From Bacteroidota bacterium (GTDB lineage: Bacteria; Bacteroidota; Bacteroidia; Chitinophagales; Chitinophagaceae), in NCBI GenBank assembly GCA_028876495.1, contig JAGWRO010000042.1:1-37373 (forward strand): a stretch of 37,373 nucleotides of DNA, written 5' to 3'. The translations under genes and the position numbers were made by a program. This document shows, piece by piece, positions 1 to 32,083 of the stretch. Within the stretch, counting starts at the first letter, position 1; every line of letters starts with the position of its first letter. The notes under the pieces are model-generated. The model was not told the origin of the DNA. It saw nothing but the letters and a program-made list of their open reading frames with translations, and did not search any database.

Positions 1-90
1 ATCTTCCTTTTTTCTTCTCTTGCTATCTTTTTTATTAATTCTTTAATAATAAGTGCATCAGGTAACCGAAGAAGCAAATGCCAGATGTGA
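1..90 (+). other. Possible 3' end of a truncated reading frame
   Basis: Frame 1 is open from the window edge to a TGA at 88-90. It gives 29 residues: a hydrophobic stretch rich in Ile, Leu, Phe and Ser, then a basic tail (GNRRSK). This could be the C-terminal membrane segment of a protein that starts upstream. It is too short to identify and may be chance. No other gene signal is seen between 91 and 177. Confidence 0.2.
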
Positions 91-177
91 AGGAAGAAAT
101 AAAAAAAACCAAGAGGAGATCAAAACAAGAAATCCAATAAAAGAGGAAGAGACTATAGAATGGTAGGAGATTACAAA

Positions 178-414
178 TCACTCTTCTACCAAATGCAGTT
201 TATAAGCAGCTTTTATTAATCCTGATGTATTCTTTACATGAAGCTTGTTGATCAAATTTTGGCGACGGGTATCAATAGTTCTTTTATTTACAAATAATTC
301 CCGGGCAATTTCCTCGTTGGTCATTTCCATAGCGATCATTACTTTCCCCAACCCGCTATGTTTCGCATTCTGGCTGATTCTTAATCTTCCAGGCCTTTCA
401 TATCTTCTACTATC
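178..414 (-). pseudogene. LuxR/GerE-type HTH remnant
   Basis: On the minus strand, the 54 codons from ATG at 337-339 to the TGA at 178-180 encode a near-complete LuxR-family C-terminal DNA-binding helix-turn-helix. The core reads MTNEEIARELFVNKRTIDTR, followed by QNLINKLHVKNTSGLIKAA, the classic family pattern of recognition helix plus scaffold helix. Upstream, the frame is closed by a TAG at 415-417. The residues expected before the motif (LTxREKEVLxL) are absent, and no receiver or sensor domain can be found. It is therefore most likely the end of a response regulator that lost its 5' part by deletion or frameshift. A functional 54-residue stand-alone HTH is possible but unlikely. Confidence 0.6.
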
Positions 415-481
415 CTACTCAATGAGAATCTGCCGTGACTTACAGATGATTTATAATTTATCGATGAAGTACACGCTTTAA

Positions 482-807
482 AAAGCATTCGTCTACCCAT
501 AAGGTTATTAATTTATGCCGGAAGGTGGAAGTTTCGATCTTTCTTATAAATACTGTCGCAATCTAATTTTTCAACTGTTAAATTTTTCACTGAATATTCT
601 TTGCCAGGATTAAATTAATTGAACAAAAGTTAATTGAACTTAACTTTATTTTACATCTCATAACATTTGAATCCAGCATGATCATTTTCATTTGTTAATA
701 AGACCTTACCAACACCTGTTTAATATTTACCCATGTTTTGTTTTTAATCATCTGCTTAACTAATTTCGTTATTGGAATTTCAATTGTGAACAAGAAAATG
801 TAGAAGT
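482..807. other. Intergenic region upstream of the HTH gene
   Basis: About 325 bases of very AT-rich DNA with no convincing reading frame on either strand. The only feature I can support is the candidate promoter at 737-768, just before the HTH gene. Confidence 0.5.
737..768 (+). promoter_or_regulatory. Candidate Bacteroidetes promoter for the HTH gene
   Basis: TTTG at 737-740 is followed after 20 bases by TAATTTCG at 761-768. This matches seven of eight positions of the Bacteroidetes -7 consensus TAnnTTTG, at the usual distance from a -33 TTTG. It lies about 40 bases before the ATG of the HTH gene. The match is by eye only. Confidence 0.4.
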
Positions 808-1110
808 ATGAATGAAACACCCATGCTGTTTCCCATAACTCCATCTGAGTTTTGGAAACAAATCAAAATGATCATTGAAAATGTAATTGCTGAAAAATTA
901 AGCCAGCAAAATATCTCTCCGTCAACTTCACTCCTTCCGGAAAAAGCATTACTGAAAGTATCAGATGTTTGTGAAATTTTCCAGATCTCCAAGCCAACAC
1001 TTTATGAATGGTTGAAACAAGAGAAACTGAAAAGTTTTAAAGTTAAGTCACGCAGGTATTTTAATCGTGCAGACATCGATGATCTGATCGCAGGAAGAAT
1101 GCAAGCCTAG
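808..1110 (+). CDS. Excisionase-like helix-turn-helix protein
   Basis: A 100-residue protein. Residues 45-98 form a MerR/excisionase-type HTH_17 domain: ALLKVSDVCEIFQISKPTLY gives helix-turn-helix, and WLKQEKLKSFKVKSRRYF followed by ADIDDLIA is the wing and final helix. The first 45 residues are a helical extension. Proteins of this kind sit first in the replication/mobilization cassettes of many Bacteroidetes mobile elements and may act as a DNA-bending excision factor, a replication initiator accessory or a transcriptional regulator. The next gene starts about 20 bases downstream in the same direction, so they are probably co-transcribed. The fold is clear; the precise role is inferred from context. 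Confidence 0.8.
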   Translation: MNETPMLFPITPSEFWKQIKMIIENVIAEKLSQQNISPSTSLLPEKALLKVSDVCEIFQISKPTLYEWLKQEKLKSFKVKSRRYFNRADIDDLIAGRMQA

Positions 1111-1128
1111 ACAAAAATAATCTTAAAA

Positions 1129-2097
1129 GTGTGTGTGATGAACTGTGAGCAAGCCAATCAAATTGACCTGGTGAATTACCTTAATTCATTGGGGTATCAG
1201 CCTCAGAAAATAAGGGGATCAGATTACTGGTACTTATCTCCTTTCAGAAAGGAAAAAGAACCGTCATTCAAGATCAATAGAAATAAAAATGTATGGTATG
1301 ATCATGGCCCTGGTAAGGGAGGAAAGCTAATTGATTTCGCAATGGAATTTTATCGCTGTGATGTAAGTGAAGCATTACAAAAAATTTCTTCCTTTCACCC
1401 GCAAAATAATTTTAAAAATAAGCTGGTCAGACCGCAGTTCCACTTGCCTAAAAACTCTGTAGCCGATAATCAGGATGCAAGAGAAACTGCTATCAAAATA
1501 ATAGCCGCAAAGCAGCCCATCCAGGACCTGGTGCTTTGCCGCTATTTATGGCAAAGAAGGATCGATAAAAGTATTGCTGATCGTTATTGTTATGAAGTTC
1601 ATTTCGCGAATGCTGATAAACAAAAAATATACAAAGCCATAGGTTTTAAAAATAACGCCGGAGGATATGAATTACGCAATGAATATTTTAAAGGAAGCAG
1701 CTCTCCCAAATATGTTACTTACGTCGATAATGGCGCAAAAAATATTTCGGTATTTGAAGGATTTTTTGATTTCATGAGTTATGGAACTATGAATAAAAAT
1801 CAGCAGGAGGATCTAACAAGTCTGCCTAACCGACATATGAATTTTCTAATCCTGAACTCGCTTTCCTTTTTTGAAAGAAGCCTTCTTTTAATGGAAAAAC
1901 ATCAGCGCATTCATCTCTTTTTAGATCATGACAACGCTGGAAGGAAATGCACCAGCCTGGCCTTAAAAAGGTCATTGAAGTTCAAAGACGAAAGCAAGTT
2001 ATATAAGGGATACAAAGACCTCAACGACTGGATGATGAATTTCGGAAAACTGGAAAAGAAAATAAATGTCGGACTAAAAAGGGGGAAACACCTTTAA
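1129..2097 (+). CDS. TOPRIM primase-like protein of mobile element
   Basis: A 322-residue protein related to the N-terminal half of DnaG-type primases. Residues 33-72 align with the CHC2 zinc finger: SPFRKEKEPSF corresponds to the usual CPFHxEKTPSF, and KGGKLIDF to the usual GGDVIDF. However, the zinc-binding Cys and His positions are Leu, Arg, Tyr and His/Gly, so metal binding is doubtful. The TOPRIM signature is intact: Glu210 in SVFEGFFDF, and Asp266 and Asp268 in LFLDHDNAG. There is no helicase-binding domain. Such proteins are standard in Bacteroidetes mobilizable elements, between an HTH gene and mob genes, and may prime replication of the transferred strand. ATG at 1138 (MNCEQ) is an alternative start. 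A terminator-like hairpin follows. Confidence 0.85.
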   Translation: MCVMNCEQANQIDLVNYLNSLGYQPQKIRGSDYWYLSPFRKEKEPSFKINRNKNVWYDHGPGKGGKLIDFAMEFYRCDVSEALQKISSFHPQNNFKNKLVRPQFHLPKNSVADNQDARETAIKIIAAKQPIQDLVLCRYLWQRRIDKSIADRYCYEVHFANADKQKIYKAIGFKNNAGGYELRNEYFKGSSSPKYVTYVDNGAKNISVFEGFFDFMSYGTMNKNQQEDLTSLPNRHMNFLILNSLSFFERSLLLMEKHQRIHLFLDHDNAGRKCTSLALKRSLKFKDESKLYKGYKDLNDWMMNFGKLEKKINVGLKRGKHL

Positions 2098-2108
2098 ACA
2101 TTTTTATT

Positions 2109-2151
2109 AGCAAGCGGTGTTTTTGTGTTACAAAAACCCTGCTTGCTTTTT
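2109..2151 (+). terminator. Hairpin with T-run between primase-like gene and mobC
   Basis: AGCAAGC at 2109-2115 pairs with GCTTGCT at 2141-2147. Inside it, TTTTTG pairs with CAAAAA around a 5-base loop, and a T-rich run follows at 2145-2151. This looks like a rho-independent terminator for the upstream HTH and primase-like genes. It sits directly before the mobilization genes, where an origin of transfer is often found, so it could instead be, or overlap, the oriT inverted repeat. Confidence 0.55.
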
Positions 2152-2185
2152 CTCCCGTTGGTCGCAAAAGAATATTACAGAGGAT

Positions 2186-2548
2186 ATGATAAGTGAGATA
2201 ATTACAATTAAGCACAAAAATGGAAGACCCAAAAAAGTTGTAAAGAAGGAAATTATAAGGAGCATCCGGTTTTCAAAAACAGAATATTTTATTGTCAAAC
2301 AACACGCTTCCAGGTCAGGATTAAAGATCACTGTGTATATCCGGCAGATGGCTTTGCAGGGAAAAATAATTTCAAGATTATCTGAAGAAGAAAGGCAAAT
2401 TGTCAGGCAATTAATAGGGATGGCGAACAACTTAAACCAGCTCACAAAGATGGGACACCAGGAAGGATTTATTACTGCGGTATTGATGTTTGAAAACTAT
2501 AAAAACTTAATGGGTGAACTATTGGAAAAACTAAAAGGAAATGATTAG
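2186..2548 (+). CDS. mobC: MobC-like mobilization accessory protein
   Basis: I chose the ATG at 2186, which follows a purine-rich AGAGGAT and gives 120 residues. The longer frame from 2117 would begin inside the hairpin. An N-terminal ribbon-helix-helix (IIRSIRFSKTEYFIVKQHA, then SGLKITVYIRQMAL) is followed by the family hallmark GMANNLNQLTKMG. MobC proteins bind oriT and help the relaxase open and nick DNA. The last codons overlap the relaxase start by 8 bases (ATGATTAG), which indicates translational coupling and supports a shared role in the relaxosome. Confidence 0.82.
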   Translation: MISEIITIKHKNGRPKKVVKKEIIRSIRFSKTEYFIVKQHASRSGLKITVYIRQMALQGKIISRLSEEERQIVRQLIGMANNLNQLTKMGHQEGFITAVLMFENYKNLMGELLEKLKGND

Positions 2549-3476
2549 CAAAGTAGTCATAGGAAGAACATTTTACGGAGCCTGCAGGTATATATGCATG
2601 GACAAAAAAAGAGCGGTGGTTTTGGAAGCAGAAGGTGTAAGGGATTATGATTACAAACTCATGGCAAAAGATTTTGAATTACAGCAGTCCCTGAGGCCTT
2701 CTCTTACTAAAGCTGTTTTTCATGGCATCATCAGCTTTTACCCGGGAGAAAAAGTTGAAGATAAAATGATGACGGAAATCGCCAAAGAATACCTGGCGGA
2801 AATGAAGATTACCGACACGCAATTTGCGATTGTAAAACACATTGATAAAAATCATTTGCACCTGCATGTTCTTGCCAACCTGGTGAACAACCATGGAGAA
2901 ACTATTAAGGATAGCTGGATTGGTCTGAGAGGAAAAAAGGTTGCACAGAAACTCACGAAAAAATATGGATTGAAAGAAGCAATCTCAAAAAACTTAGCCT
3001 TAACAAATCTTGAATCCTTAAATGAAAGAGAAGCCAATCGTTACATCATTTACCAGGCTATTGTAGAGAAGCTACCCTTATGCAGAAGTCTTGCTGAATT
3101 AAAAGAAAAATTAACGAAAGAAAATATTGAAACATTATACAAATACAAAGGACATACAAAAGAGCTTCAAGGTATTAGTTTTAAAATGGGAGATTATAAA
3201 TATAAAGGAAGCGAGATTGACCGAAAATTCTCCATCAATAATCTTCAGAAAATATTGTTACAGCAGCAGTCAGCTAGATTCATAAAATCACCGGTAGGTT
3301 CATTGTATTCAAAAAGTATTTCTCAAAATAAGCAACCGGAAATTAATAAGCAGGTGAGTAAAGAAATGCATATTCTTAATGAAATGATGAAGCCAGGCCA
3401 AAGAGATCAATCGATGCCATCCGAATGGAGGTTACAAAAAAAGAGAAAGAAAAAATCAAAAAGAATGCATTTGTAA
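2541..3476 (+). CDS. mobA: Relaxase / mobilization nuclease
   Basis: A 311-residue relaxase of the MobA/VirD2-like (Pfam Relaxase) type. Its role is to nick one strand at oriT and stay bound to the 5' end during conjugal transfer. The metal-binding three-histidine motif is clear: His100, His105, His107 and His109 in HIDKNHLHLHVLAN. A likely catalytic tyrosine is Tyr17 in FYGACRYICMDK, and His61 in VFHGIISF belongs to the usual second motif. The C-terminus is Lys/Arg-rich (KKRKKKSKR), which suits non-specific DNA binding. The length is short for the family but typical of small Bacteroidetes elements. It overlaps mobC and is followed 11 bases later by the membrane protein gene. Confidence 0.88.
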   Translation: MISKVVIGRTFYGACRYICMDKKRAVVLEAEGVRDYDYKLMAKDFELQQSLRPSLTKAVFHGIISFYPGEKVEDKMMTEIAKEYLAEMKITDTQFAIVKHIDKNHLHLHVLANLVNNHGETIKDSWIGLRGKKVAQKLTKKYGLKEAISKNLALTNLESLNEREANRYIIYQAIVEKLPLCRSLAELKEKLTKENIETLYKYKGHTKELQGISFKMGDYKYKGSEIDRKFSINNLQKILLQQQSARFIKSPVGSLYSKSISQNKQPEINKQVSKEMHILNEMMKPGQRDQSMPSEWRLQKKRKKKSKRMHL

Positions 3477-3487
3477 ATTGAATAATA

Positions 3488-4063
3488 ATGTGTGAGATAT
3501 TATTACAGGCAATAGTGGAAAAACTGGAAGCTCTGGAAATTGCTTTATTAAAACAAGGTAGTGCAGGTAAAGATGAAGAAACTTCAAATGGGGAAATGAA
3601 ACTGCTTCAATCTGAATTCATAAAGTGGGCTACCACGCTTAAAACAAACAATGAAAAAATTAATAGCTTATCTGAAGACATACGTGCAATAAGAGTTAAT
3701 TCTGATAATCCTATGCAAAATCAAGTCAAGCATGTCCATCATTTTCATAAGCAGGTATGGCTTCCCGTTAGTTTGTTTATCATTTCTTTATTGCTTGCCT
3801 ATGGATGGGTTAATTGCAGTAACGAAAAGAAATCTTTTGAGGCAAACGATATGAAGTATAGATATTGGAAAGTTAATGGCAATACTCACTTATTAAAGAT
3901 TATTTACTACACTGATAGCCTATATAACCAGGATAAAGACCATTTTATAGAACAGGTTGTCCGGTCGGAACGCCAAATCTCTGAGCAGGAGAATATGCAT
4001 CGGCTGGCTGGTGAAAAAGAAAAAAACTTAGATCAAAAGGAAAAGAAAGTTTTGTCTAAATAG
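3488..4063 (+). CDS. Unknown single-span membrane protein of mob operon
   Basis: A 191-residue protein I do not recognise. Residues 1-70 are predicted helical and probably coiled. A histidine cluster, HVHHFHK, sits at 82-88, just before one membrane span at about 90-108 (WLPVSLFIISLLLAYGW). A charged, helical C-terminal region of about 80 residues (SERQISEQENMHRLAGEKEK) follows. There is no signal peptide, so the N-terminus is probably cytoplasmic. It begins 11 bases after the relaxase stop in the same direction, so it is almost certainly co-transcribed with it. A role in docking the relaxosome to the membrane or to a helper system is possible, but this is guesswork. Confidence 0.6.
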   Translation: MCEILLQAIVEKLEALEIALLKQGSAGKDEETSNGEMKLLQSEFIKWATTLKTNNEKINSLSEDIRAIRVNSDNPMQNQVKHVHHFHKQVWLPVSLFIISLLLAYGWVNCSNEKKSFEANDMKYRYWKVNGNTHLLKIIYYTDSLYNQDKDHFIEQVVRSERQISEQENMHRLAGEKEKNLDQKEKKVLSK

Positions 4064-4218
4064 AAGAATTATTATTGTCGATAAGTTGATAATAATTATT
4101 ACCGCTACATTTCTCCCTTAATTTTATTCATCTATAAACTTTATACATGAAACCTCTATCATGTATAAATAATTAAACTATTTTTACATGACAATCATTT
4201 CACGGATAATCTTAATAC

Positions 4219-5319
4219 ATGAGCAGAAAAACTATAAAAACAATAATTGATCAACCTTTCAATAATTTACCTTTCTTACCACCAGATAAAGAAAGTACTG
4301 AAACAAAAAATATTCTGCGCCAGGTTGTTAAGTCATCGCTTGCCTTAGCAGAATTAAAAGGGCTTGTGCATACCTTACCCAATCCGGATATACTTTTAAA
4401 TGCAGTTATCTTAAAAGAAGCGAGAGCCAGTTCAGAAATAGAAAATGTAATAACTACTCAGGATAAATTATACCAGGCTTTATCTGCAAAGGGAACTCAG
4501 GTAGATACAGCCACAAAAGAGGTATTGCGATACAGGGAAGCCATACTCTCAGGTTTTCAGCAAATTAAAAAAAAGGGCTTTATAAATGCCAATATAATTA
4601 TTCAAATTCAAAAGGTTCTGGAAGACAATAATGCGGGTATTCGAAAACTACCAGGAACTGCATTAAAGAACGCCGCCACTGGTAAAGTTATATACACGCC
4701 ACCTGATAATTATCATACGATTATTAGATTGATGAAAAATCTGGAAGATTATCTAAATGAGGAGGTTGAATTATCACCTTTGATTAATCTGGCCATTCAA
4801 CATTATCAATTTGAAAGTATTCATCCGTTTTATGACGGGAATGGGCGAACAGGCCGAATTATTAATGTGCTTTATTTAATTCTTCATGGTTTATTAGACA
4901 GTCCAATTCTATATCTAAGTGAATTTATTATTGAAAATAAATCCGACTATTACAGGCTATTACAGGAGGTACGCACAAAAGAAAATTGGGAGGAATGGAT
5001 ATTATTCATCTTAACCGCAATAGAAAAAACGTCCAAAGAAACGATCCATCAGATCCAGCAAATAAATAAACTTTTTCAAACAGTCAGTGATAAAATAAAA
5101 GAGGAATTTCCAAAATCATTTAATAAAGAATTGGTAGAACTTTTATTCGAACAACCTTATTGTAAAATTGACTTTGTAATAGAAAGACTAAATATTTCAA
5201 GAATTACGGCATCAAAATATCTCAAAGAATTAAAACAAATTGGAATTTTGGAATCAAAGCAAGTTTGGAAAGAAACGCTATATATAAATACTAAACTCTT
5301 TGATTTACTTAAAGGTTAA
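4219..5319 (+). CDS. Fic family AMP-transferase with HTH tail
   Basis: A 366-residue Fic protein. Fic enzymes usually transfer AMP from ATP to hydroxyl groups on target proteins. The catalytic motif HPFYDGNGRTGR spans residues 202-213 and is complete. The target-clamping flap region is around 156-162 (KVIYTPP), and IRKLPGT at 141-147 is the usual preceding motif. An N-terminal inhibitory helix is present: Ser71, Glu75 and Asn76 in SSEIEN fit the class II pattern [S/T]xxxE[G/N], so activity is probably self-restrained. Residues 290-366 form a winged-helix domain (ISRITASKYLKELKQIGILE). The gene lies between the mob genes and the att-like tRNA fragment, the usual place for cargo. No antitoxin-like partner gene is adjacent. 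Confidence 0.9.
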   Translation: MSRKTIKTIIDQPFNNLPFLPPDKESTETKNILRQVVKSSLALAELKGLVHTLPNPDILLNAVILKEARASSEIENVITTQDKLYQALSAKGTQVDTATKEVLRYREAILSGFQQIKKKGFINANIIIQIQKVLEDNNAGIRKLPGTALKNAATGKVIYTPPDNYHTIIRLMKNLEDYLNEEVELSPLINLAIQHYQFESIHPFYDGNGRTGRIINVLYLILHGLLDSPILYLSEFIIENKSDYYRLLQEVRTKENWEEWILFILTAIEKTSKETIHQIQQINKLFQTVSDKIKEEFPKSFNKELVELLFEQPYCKIDFVIERLNISRITASKYLKELKQIGILESKQVWKETLYINTKLFDLLKG

Positions 5320-5522
5320 TGTTTACTTAATCGTGTACACGTGAACGTTAGTATGCACAGATCTTAATAATTTGTTTTCTAATCGTAAAAAATACATTGA
5401 ATTTACTTATCTTTACTTTAGAATGTTGTTCTTTAAATTGAAAAGACTTTTGTAGAGTGATTCGTGGAGTTTAAAACATTAGTAGTTCTTAAATAATTGA
5501 TTAACAAGTAATAGAGCGGTTA
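5320..5522. other. Element-terminal non-coding DNA
   Basis: AT-rich DNA between the Fic stop codon and the tRNA-Ser scar, with no convincing gene. A perfect 8-bp palindrome GTGTACAC sits at 5333-5340. Integrase or excisionase arm-binding sites would be expected here, but I cannot identify them by eye. Confidence 0.4.
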
Positions 5523-5544
5523 GTTCGAATCCCTCTCTCTCCGC
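5523..5544 (+). repeat. tRNA-Ser 3'-end fragment, probable attachment site
   Basis: The sequence holds the T-loop (GTTCGAAT), the 3' side of the T-stem (CCCTC) and the acceptor 3' strand (TCTCTCC plus discriminator G), which matches the 3' end of a Bacteroidetes tRNA-Ser. The preceding bases (GCGGTTA) cannot form the 5' side of the T-stem, and no anticodon arm is present, so this is not a complete tRNA. A 22-bp tRNA 3' end at the edge of a mob gene cluster is the standard scar of site-specific integration into a tRNA gene. Confidence 0.75.
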
Positions 5545-5567
5545 TGAAATAAGCTCTTGCAAATAAG

Positions 5568-5617
5568 ATAAATAAAAACTCCTGTAAAAAATGATATTTA
5601 CAGGAGTTTTTATTTAT
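5568..5617. terminator. Perfect bidirectional terminator
   Basis: A 21-base arm at 5568-5588 and its exact complement at 5597-5617 enclose an 8-base loop. The stem core is ACTCCTGTAAA, flanked by A-runs on the left and T-runs on the right, so it can end transcription on both strands. Before the element integrated it probably terminated the tRNA-Ser transcript. It now also serves the minus-strand gene ending at 5646. Confidence 0.85.
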
Positions 5618-5645
5618 AGGGTTTATTATATCTGCTTCTTTTATA

Positions 5646-6416
5646 CTATAATTTGAGTCCCAGTTTTATTCCTGAAAAAAAATATGAATCGTTCTTAGTA
5701 GGGTTTCCCCTGGGAAGGCCTTCTTCCACAAAAGGAACACTTTTTCTATAAGCCATTTCCACGGCTTTAGGACCTTTTGCCTGATTAAGTACATCCAGGT
5801 TTACATATGTTTTACTTACATCATCCAGGTAATCCGTGAAAAGAAAGCGATATCCAAACTCATAACAGATTTCCCATTTTTCATTAAGAGCAACCTTCCA
5901 TCCCAATCCTACCGGCAAACAAACTTGTGTAAGTGAATATTTTTTTCTGCTTGAATATTGTGGTAATCCCTCTCCTTCTGTACTCAGAGGTTGTAAATAG
6001 GTTTTTACGTTATTTTTATCATAGGTATAAGGGTTAAAATGAAATACACCGACACACCCAAAAAAATAGGGGTAAGCATAAAAACCAGCCGGATCCATCA
6101 ATGGAATTTCAAAACCAATGTTAGCCTCAAGAATATTGGTTTTAAAGTTGAGGTTTCGGGCTTTTAAATCCGCATGCGTATTATACTTGTCATTTCCGGC
6201 AACAGCCCCAAATCCAATACCCGCTCTAAAATTTATAAAATTTCCAGTGTTATATTTTATATTAATATTCATAGCAGGCCTCATAGTATTGAAAGCTACT
6301 CTTTGTTGCGTTAAATCTCCATTGTATCCTGATACACCTAACATTACCTCCGCCACCCAACCCTGTCCCAAACAGGTATTGCCTATCAGCAAAAAAATGA
6401 ATAGGATTTTTTTCAT
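5646..6416 (-). CDS. DUF6089-type outer membrane protein
   Basis: A 256-residue protein with a signal peptide (MKKILFIFLLIGNTCLGQ) and then alternating polar/hydrophobic strands typical of an outer-membrane beta-barrel. Features include the early SGYNGDL motif, repeated Gly/aromatic strands such as NFRAGIGFG, and a C-terminal strand SGIKLGLKL. It resembles the DUF6089 proteins common in Bacteroidetes, whose function is not established. It is transcribed alone from the minus strand, between the terminator at 5568-5617 and a long intergenic region. Localisation is well supported; function is unknown. Confidence 0.75.
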   Translation of the reverse strand: MKKILFIFLLIGNTCLGQGWVAEVMLGVSGYNGDLTQQRVAFNTMRPAMNINIKYNTGNFINFRAGIGFGAVAGNDKYNTHADLKARNLNFKTNILEANIGFEIPLMDPAGFYAYPYFFGCVGVFHFNPYTYDKNNVKTYLQPLSTEGEGLPQYSSRKKYSLTQVCLPVGLGWKVALNEKWEICYEFGYRFLFTDYLDDVSKTYVNLDVLNQAKGPKAVEMAYRKSVPFVEEGLPRGNPTKNDSYFFSGIKLGLKL

Positions 6417-6854
6417 ACTATTTGATATTTTGGTTTACACAATGAATAATTGCATTTTACAATGTCTTTCCTTCTTCCGATTTTCATAATCTATTAGGTA
6501 ATAGATGTTAATGGCTCCTGTATCAAAATTAAGTTTTTGTAGTTAAACCCGTTATTTTTAACATATTAAATTAGTTAGTGCTGTAGCTTATATTCAAATA
6601 AAGCATTTTGGCGAATTTCTTATGCCCAATAGATAAGAACTGAAACAGAAAAACTAATTCATAAGTTGGACTTTGGTTAAACGATCAAAGGATATCCATA
6701 AACCTTAAGTTCGCAGGTAACTTTAACTTCGTGCATTGTTAGGTTATACGATTTGAGATCGTTATTTTATTATAATTATCGCATCATACTTTTGAGTGAT
6801 AAAACAAAAATTAATCATGGTCCCATTCAAACCGAAAATAAAAGCTTTTCACTT
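6417..6854. other. Intergenic region of about 440 bases
   Basis: AT-rich with no supported gene. TACTTTTG at 6787-6794 matches the TAnnTTTG -7 consensus on the plus strand, but only a 20-codon frame follows (from ATG at 6818), which I do not call. The palindrome AAAAGCTTTT near 6841-6850 lies just after the galM stop on the minus strand and may help end that transcript. Confidence 0.4.
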
Positions 6855-7991
6855 TTATCTTGATAGTTTTACTTTGTAAATAGTCACCTGGTGATATTTC
6901 TCTCCTGGTTTTAAAATGGTTGATGGAAAATTTGGTTTATTTGGAGAGTCAGGAAAATGCTGGGTTTCAAGAGCCAATGCTGAATGTTGGATTAGAGGTT
7001 CTCCTCCATGATTCAAAAATTTTCCATCAAGAAAATTACCTGTATAAAATTGCAGCCCCGGTTGTGTTGTATATATTTCCATAGTTCTGCCACTTATTGA
7101 ATCTGAAAGTTCTGCCACTTTTTCTAACGATGAGTCTTTTTTATTTAAAACAAAGTTGTGATCATATCCTCCCGGCACAGCCGAGAAATCACGACCGATT
7201 TTTTTCGGTGAAGTAAAATCAAAAGGAGTGCCTTTTACAGCCTTGATTTCGCCTGTTGGAATTAACGTACTGTCAACAGGTGTATAATGATCAGCATCAA
7301 TCATCAGTGTTTCATTAAGAATTGTATTACTTACATTGCCTGATAGATTAAAGTAACTATGGTTCGTTAAATTCAAAGGCGTTGCTTTGTCGGTCTCTGC
7401 TTCATACTCGATTTTTAAACCATCATCATTGGTTAATGTGTAATGAACTGTAACATTGAGATTTCCCGGGTAACCTTCTTCCCCATCTTTACTTAGGTAT
7501 TTTAAAGTAAGCTCCGGAACCGTATCGGAAGCGATCGAGGCATCCCAAACAACTTTATCAAACCCCTTTAATCCTCCATGCAATGTATTTTTTCCATCAT
7601 TGGCCGAAAGTTGGTATGTTGTTCCATCAAGCGTGAATTTGGCATCTCCGATCCTGTTTCCATATCGACCGATCAATGCTCCAAAATAAGGCGGATGTTG
7701 AAGATAAGGCTGTAAACTATCGAAGCCAACTATAATACTTGATCGGTTACCATTTTTATCAGGTGTTTTAAAGGAGGTAACGGCACCACCGTAATTTGTA
7801 ATGGTAACGGTGTCACCTTTAGCATTTACTAAAGTGAAGAGATATACTTTCTTTCCGTCAAATACGCCCCAGTCAGTTTTAGTGATGCCAGGCTTTATCA
7901 CCGCTTTTTTTTCATTCTCTGATGAATTATTGCAGGAAGTGATTAGTAAACCAACTATTCCGGTAACAAGTATGATTTTTAAGATTTTCAT
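6855..7991 (-). CDS. galM: Aldose 1-epimerase (mutarotase), lipoprotein
   Basis: A GalM-family mutarotase that interconverts the alpha and beta anomers of sugars, here probably arabinose. The start at 7991 (MKILKIILV) was chosen over 8012 because it gives a clean lipoprotein signal with the lipobox LITSC (Cys20). About 378 residues. Family motifs are NRIGDAKFTLDG, HGGLKGFDKVVWD, the catalytic His region NLTNHSYFNLSG, and the catalytic Glu region ALETQHFPDSPN. A lipid anchor places it in the periplasm or on the envelope, unlike cytoplasmic GalM of enterobacteria. It is the last gene of the minus-strand arabinose run. A gap of about 285 bases separates it from the small membrane protein gene, so it may also have its own promoter. 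Confidence 0.92.
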   Translation of the reverse strand: MKILKIILVTGIVGLLITSCNNSSENEKKAVIKPGITKTDWGVFDGKKVYLFTLVNAKGDTVTITNYGGAVTSFKTPDKNGNRSSIIVGFDSLQPYLQHPPYFGALIGRYGNRIGDAKFTLDGTTYQLSANDGKNTLHGGLKGFDKVVWDASIASDTVPELTLKYLSKDGEEGYPGNLNVTVHYTLTNDDGLKIEYEAETDKATPLNLTNHSYFNLSGNVSNTILNETLMIDADHYTPVDSTLIPTGEIKAVKGTPFDFTSPKKIGRDFSAVPGGYDHNFVLNKKDSSLEKVAELSDSISGRTMEIYTTQPGLQFYTGNFLDGKFLNHGGEPLIQHSALALETQHFPDSPNKPNFPSTILKPGEKYHQVTIYKVKLSR

Positions 7992-8276
7992 ATTCCTTAA
8001 TTTAGATTTCAAATTTATAAAATAATTACAGCCATCCTAAAATACAGATTCCATAAGTAAAAAGATTCTGCCAGGATAATTCCCTTTTTCTCTTTCACCC
8101 ATTTCTTCTTTACCATTTGCTTCAACAGTGAAGTTCAAATCACCAATAATGCCAAATCACCCCCATGTTCTTTTCTTTTTCCTGTCAGAATTATTTCCAG
8201 TTCATACGGCATTCTCCCTTTTGTTGACCATGCGAACAAAAAAAAATAAAGCCATGAGTGTAGGGCCCAACAAGCA

Positions 8277-32041: not shown

Positions 32042-32083
32042 AACCAAAGGCAACCCGGATCATGATCCGGGTTGCCTTTGGTT
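32042..32083. terminator. 42-base perfect palindrome
   Basis: Each 21-base arm is the exact complement of the other with no loop (centre ATCATGAT at 32059-32066). The core is GGCAACCCGGATC. It lies 34 bases after the coiled-coil protein gene and before the next plus-strand gene, so a terminator is the obvious role. The following T-rich stretch is CTTTTTCC at 32088-32095, a little distant. A perfect cruciform with no loop is more than termination needs. Confidence 0.75.

Follow-up and report, generated by a model that had tools for sequence, protein, structure and literature searches.

NBU2, a mobilizable element, enters tRNA-Ser genes. In Klebsiella pneumoniae, insertion of ICEKp1 at the 3' end of a tRNA gene moves the host terminator away to the element's far end and int is transcribed from the tRNA promoter, while stem-loops before int are described as a potential terminator attenuating int (PMC13023037, in the portions of that paper available). 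The 10K genomic island of Riemerella anatipestifer is associated with a tRNA-Arg gene, an integrase and a printed 53-bp repeat (PMC6764341, from the accessible part of the text); by our own reading of the printed letters, this repeat appears to end in a hairpin with a T run. Islander tRNA islands have a tyrosine integrase, a regenerated tRNA gene at one end and a displaced fragment at the other (PMC4383910, as far as the excerpts consulted go), and the locus described here has the same parts. NBU1/NBU2-type integrative mobilizable elements (IMEs) of Bacteroidetes share with it their own relaxase and integrase, and no conjugation machinery was seen in those parts of the element that are available here (PMC5704250, in the sections at hand). 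The window, meaning the whole stretch of DNA analysed, is one complete contig (C28) of 37373 bases from a 4.7-Mb draft genome in 99 contigs. It holds a tRNA-Ser scar at which such an element ends, and the element, like many of its relatives, seems to carry a predicted transcription stop signal of its own just behind the tRNA that it entered.

The attachment site in tRNA-Ser(TGA)

The 3' part of a tRNA-Ser is readable at window positions 5523-5544, and ARAGORN found no complete tRNA in the window. When up to two mismatches are allowed, the 22-mer at 5524-5545 has two sites in the 4.7-Mb genome, the scar itself and an intact tRNA-Ser(TGA) on contig C43. The sequence-only reading had recognized a T-loop, the 3' arms of the T-stem and acceptor and the discriminator in the 22 bases, which alignment to the intact gene bore out; it placed the scar correctly at 5523-5544, but the exact repeat runs six bases further, to a maximal length of 28 bases (window 5523-5550 against C43:28365-28392). 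A rough estimate from base composition gives about 2e-11 chance matches to the 28-mer in a genome of this size. As in tRNA islands generally, an intact tRNA stands at one end and a matching 3' fragment at the other, with an integrase behind the tRNA on C43 and the scar on the separate contig C28. The expected division between mob genes on one side and chromosomal genes on the other also holds: left of the scar the genes encode HTH, primase-like, NikA/MobC and relaxase proteins, and right of it a DUF6089 protein, an aldose epimerase and a sodium:solute symporter (Table 1). Base composition fails to tell element from chromosome.

Table 1. Positions of features in the window, with the roles proposed for them.
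Feature	Position	Strand	Remarks
Right end of integrated element, all that contig C28 has	1..5522	+	Missing from G017, where the tRNA is joined to 5523 onwards
HTH_17 protein, possible excisionase-like or regulatory	808..1110	+	Pfam HTH_17 1.8e-13; NCBIfam 'excise' 4.8e-6, under cut-off
Primase-like protein, CHC2 zinc finger and Toprim	1129..2097	+	
NikA/MobC-like mobilization protein	2117..2548	+	
MobA/VirD2-like relaxase	2541..3476	+	Pfam Relaxase 2.1e-33
Protein without family (orf5), kept behind relaxase in relatives	3488..4063	+	No Pfam above cut-off; relatives in 5/7 regions read
SoFic-like Fic protein, probably cargo	4219..5319	+	No match at E 1e-5 in the seven related regions
ATTCGTGGAGT, proposed arm-type integrase site	5460..5470	+	Single window copy, 0.01 expected
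attR core	5523..5550	+	Exact copy of last 22 bases of tRNA-Ser(TGA) and 6 bases beyond; tRNA intact in empty site G017
Terminator-like hairpin of host tRNA-Ser(TGA), apparently displaced by insertion	5568..5617	+	-29.4 kcal/mol for 5546-5625, z -8.75
Chromosomal flank: DUF6089 outer-membrane-like protein	5646..6416	-	Collinear behind tRNA in G017
Chromosomal flank: aldose 1-epimerase	6855..8012	-	Partly under G017 match 6869-7658, where G017 contig ends

The junction can be compared with G017, a genome of the same genus that has the arrangement of an unoccupied tRNA island site. One G017 contig matches C43:28287-34605 (87%) and 34775-40513 (89%) on one side and window 5523-6579 (83%) and 6869-7658 (93%) on the other, and the two sets of matches meet at an intact tRNA-Ser(TGA). 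G017 is, judged from these alignments, the empty site (attB), which puts C43 to the left of the insertion and the window from 5551 onwards to its right, with the 28 bases as attR. In a search of 20 genomes of the genus, some match to window 5500-6500 was found in 17, this genome included, many of them short and weak, and G017 is the only one in which both flanks were seen meeting. Two possible objections raised beforehand have answers here. A tRNA-Ser sharing the 3' end might have been missing from the genome, and tRNA-Ser(TGA) is present on C43; the same 22 bases might have stood at this position in relatives without the mob genes, and G017 does have them, within its intact tRNA-Ser(TGA), i.e. 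as attB.

A reading of the 22 bases as a piece of some old tRNA pseudogene, or as an accidental resemblance with no tie to integration, would find some room in a draft assembly with tRNA and scar on different contigs, but it is exceedingly improbable given that 28 of 28 bases are identical and that the mob genes end at the scar, and it was rejected on the grounds that the very same junction in G017 is occupied by an intact tRNA. Positions 5523-5550 are thus almost certainly attR, where an integrative mobilizable element, put into the 3' end of tRNA-Ser(TGA) by a tyrosine integrase, has its right boundary. With this boundary, one end of a defence-gene island is known to the base, and so is its target, which makes excision and transfer testable.

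Just before the scar, at window 5513-5521, AGAGCGGTT is identical to a nine-base stretch in the D-arm of this tRNA-Ser(TGA); the likeness is either due to chance or indicates that the element's own end once held an internally deleted tRNA. Elsewhere in the window, a perfect 42-base palindrome occupies intergenic DNA at 32042-32083.

The integrase end, the cargo and related elements

The sequence-only reading had placed an intact tRNA-Ser with this 3' end, beside an integrase gene, upstream of the window. Both are present in the genome, with the tyrosine integrase about 260 bases behind the tRNA, but on a different contig, C43, and not in contiguous upstream sequence. The distance on C43, 264, was counted to the first residue of a query without start codon. 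The integrase is about 406 residues long and comprises an arm, a SAM-like and a catalytic domain. Near the contig end, at C43:310-996 (within L029:310-1017), an N-terminally truncated integrase (65% to the main C43 integrase) runs in the opposite direction, a sign of element nesting or stacking.

The scar could accordingly end one element while the C43 integrase belongs to a second one stacked in the same tRNA, the true partner being lost in an assembly gap or represented by the truncated integrase. Besides that integrase, the separation of C43 and C28 into two contigs speaks for such a stack, as does the resemblance of the flank right of the scar to the left end of the element, which repeated use of the site would give. 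It is nonetheless unlikely, because the genome has one tRNA-free copy of the 3' end only (at up to two mismatches), where a stack of two elements normally leaves another unless it falls in the gap, and because ATTCGTGGAGT is common to both ends. In the window this sequence lies 63 bases before the core; further copies follow the tRNA at the integrase ends of C43, contig C19 and G001. Its other matches among 263 loci (L107, L193, L206) were, where examined, away from such ends. We infer that ATTCGTGGAGT may be an arm-type integrase site.

With C43 and C28 taken as pieces of one element, it measures about 34 kb, any DNA between C43:1 and C28:1 excluded. Besides a CHU_C secreted protein, C43:1-28364 encodes cargo that resembles a defence cluster (L029:1649-12352, on C43); it comprises a SocA/Panacea-domain protein, a multi-ubiquitin protein together with a DUF6791-ThiF protein, a type IIG restriction-modification protein, and LmuA and LmuB of Lamassu. 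The element has its own relaxase and integrase, as IMEs do, and no conjugation pore was found among those ORFs of C43:1-28364 and window 1-5522 that were searched. It is most likely an integrative mobilizable element carrying defence genes, a known kind.

Relatives were sought through the relaxase in 147 genomes of the family, which gave 63 matches at E 1e-3, mostly weak, and the surroundings were read for one match in each of seven genomes. On one contig of a genome from another genus (G028:C2), tRNA-Ser(GGA), an integrase 64% identical, HTH, primase, MobC, relaxase, orf5 and a scar follow each other in one direction; the scar is an exact copy of the last 16 bases of tRNA-Ser(GGA), 32.3 kb away, and extends to 23 bases when aligned by eye. 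This is a complete element of about 32 kb with the same layout, which supports pairing the integrase end with the mob end in the present genome. G028 is alone among the seven mob regions read in having a tRNA, a close integrase relative and a scar together. A second G028 element (G028:C6) has tRNA-Ser(GCT), an integrase and mob genes in the same order, and no scar was found in the 45 kb read. G026 has tRNA-Pro, integrase, HTH, MobC and relaxase together, and no exact att copy was found for it; the sole near copy (16 bases, 2 of them mismatched) seems to belong to a different inverted repeat and was rejected as an att site. In G089, tRNA-Asn stands 18.7 kb from an exact repeat of its final 16 bases, with the mob genes and a distant integrase (29%) between them. 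G116 has an integrase and mob genes, the tRNA being absent from the stretch read; in G001 and G085 the only integrase near the mob genes is a distant one, and G054 shows none.

The tRNA-Ser 3' end, at up to one mismatch over 21 bases, has matches in 31 of 34 genomes and more than one copy in six, four of which have intact tRNA-Ser genes only, while G101 and G182 each have one tRNA-free copy in addition. Exact or near-exact tRNA-free scars at this threshold are rare (2/34 relatives' genomes), which counts against the generality of intact elements. On G182:C66 (L249, L250), tRNA-Ser(TGA) and a tRNA-free copy of its 3' end lie 39 kb apart with similar downstream flanks, and the pair is probably another integrated element.

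The present genome has further loci of this kind. On contig C19 (L007:9871-11058), tRNA-Ser(GGA) is followed by an integrase 88-89% identical to that of C43 and without the catalytic part; this is a second element of the same family, for which no tRNA-Ser(GGA) scar was found at up to two mismatches. A second NikA/MobC-relaxase copy (90-93%) on contig C90 (L056:1-1818) stops some 150 bases short of the tRNA-Leu(TAA) 3' end. The relaxase of this copy (C90:433-1365, 91%) might have marked the far end of the C19 element; this idea was set aside, given the missing tRNA-Ser(GGA) scar and the position beside tRNA-Leu(TAA). Also on C90 (L057:8726-10350), a full-length integrase relative (45%) lies directly behind tRNA-Pro(GGG), the third tRNA used by the integrase family within one genome.

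Hairpins behind the tRNA gene

Integrase ends were compared at 112 loci, comprising 32 from whole-genome searches and 80 named loci that partly overlap and were not de-duplicated. A tRNA (74) or tmRNA (7) lies upstream on the same strand within 700 bases at 81 of them, and in 74 of the 81 its end is separated from the start of the integrase by 246-286 bases (full range 193-420). A terminator-like hairpin and T run within 110 bases of the tRNA or tmRNA end was found at 74/81 loci compared with 94/1620 shuffles; the seven loci without it are L041, L117, L120, L134, L138, L146 and L183. Among the 31 loci that have no tRNA, 27 could be tested, and the hairpin is present 130-260 bases before the integrase in 26. 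Identical hairpin sequences occur behind different tRNA genes, for example tRNA-Ser(TGA) and tRNA-Ser(GGA), which indicates that the hairpin goes with the element. The stem is paired in 95.9% of cells, with changes on both sides in 9 of 13 pairs and a covariation score of 0.408 compared with 0.153 for shuffles, in a set of 30 out of 61 distinct segments that was hand-picked among segments preselected as hairpins and so favours pairing.

The same test was passed by 14 of 24 other tRNAs, three of which (G017, G019, L249) may be of the element kind, and by 17 of 30 tRNA-Ser genes without integrase at genus loci, one place being counted twice. A terminator behind a tRNA is itself ordinary, and the point of interest is that an element brings one. 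This ordinariness weighs against a reading of the hairpin at the integrase end as a DNA inverted repeat, bound by integrase or an accessory protein, in place of an RNA terminator; so do the T run that follows and a stem whose sequence varies while pairs are kept, G-U included. Two observations would suit a DNA site: within the attachment region such hairpins keep an almost fixed spacing to the integrase gene, and an A-rich pattern persists in their 5' arm. We consider this reading improbable. The preferred reading is that of a terminator. On C43 the tRNA is followed after 32 bases (26 when counted from the core) by a hairpin with a T run, at which tRNA transcription probably stops, leaving the integrase gene insulated from the tRNA promoter; int expression of the ICEKp1 kind would go with no strong terminator between tRNA and int, and the sequence of C43 suggests that one is there.

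Integration may then be pictured as follows. The integrase would exchange strands inside the shared 28 bases, the tRNA gene would be completed at the left end by element DNA, and the old tRNA 3' end and old terminator would be pushed to the right end. The element would supply a replacement terminator-like hairpin 26 bases behind the core, and the relaxase with a helper conjugation system could move the excised circle. Consistent with this, the counterpart of the hairpin at 5568-5617 follows the intact tRNA in G017, which points to displacement of the host hairpin by integration here.

The displaced hairpin itself resembles those of the elements. With the core excluded, the right flank in the window scores 44 against the element terminator region, and the scores for G017, G019 and G001 are 56, 71 and 95, each of the four being reached by 0/1000 shuffles. 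None of 12 tRNA-Ser(TGA) flanks from 11 other genus genomes stands out, the best being reached by 37/1000 shuffles. Behind tRNA-Ser(TGA) in G001 just a 42-residue integrase remnant was matched, and at C19, where the integrase is broken, the hairpin test fails. These loci can be read as a putative decay series, from intact element to broken integrase, to left end only, to terminator only, and the hairpin at 5568-5617 looks like the remnant of a previous integration. An ancestral element that had captured a host terminator would account for the likeness too.

A wider proposal, to which we give a little less than an even chance, is that a widespread Bacteroidota integrase family has a portable tRNA terminator fixed in its attachment module. 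Each integration would replace the host terminator, keep the tRNA unit closed and silence int read-through, and decayed elements would leave the terminator as the tRNA's own; 5568-5617 and the tRNA-Ser(TGA) flanks of G017 and G019 would be fossils of this process. Mobile elements could thereby rewrite the 3' control regions of tRNA genes.

Comparison with described elements

The anatomy of the element is already known, and the portable terminator is the part worth following. In the literature searched, no description of an element-borne tRNA terminator in Bacteroidota was found, and one may already be in print. Islander islands do not differ from it in basic anatomy (PMC4383910, in the extracts seen), and the word 'terminator' is absent from the text of that paper. 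Compared with NBU1/NBU2, the element is larger and carries defence genes, a comparison by description and not by sequence (PMC5704250, available in part). The 10K island of R. anatipestifer is likewise a Bacteroidota island at a tRNA gene with an integrase; its putative hairpin lies inside the perfect repeat, whereas the hairpins at the two ends here differ in sequence (PMC6764341, partial text). The likeness to ICEKp1 is that the host terminator appears displaced to the far end in both, while the difference is the compact terminator-like hairpin that stands 32 bases behind the tRNA here (PMC13023037, on the passages available). Little read-through into int is predicted from such a hairpin, and an element-borne terminator suggests an answer to integrase control beside a tRNA gene that is unlike that of ICEKp1.
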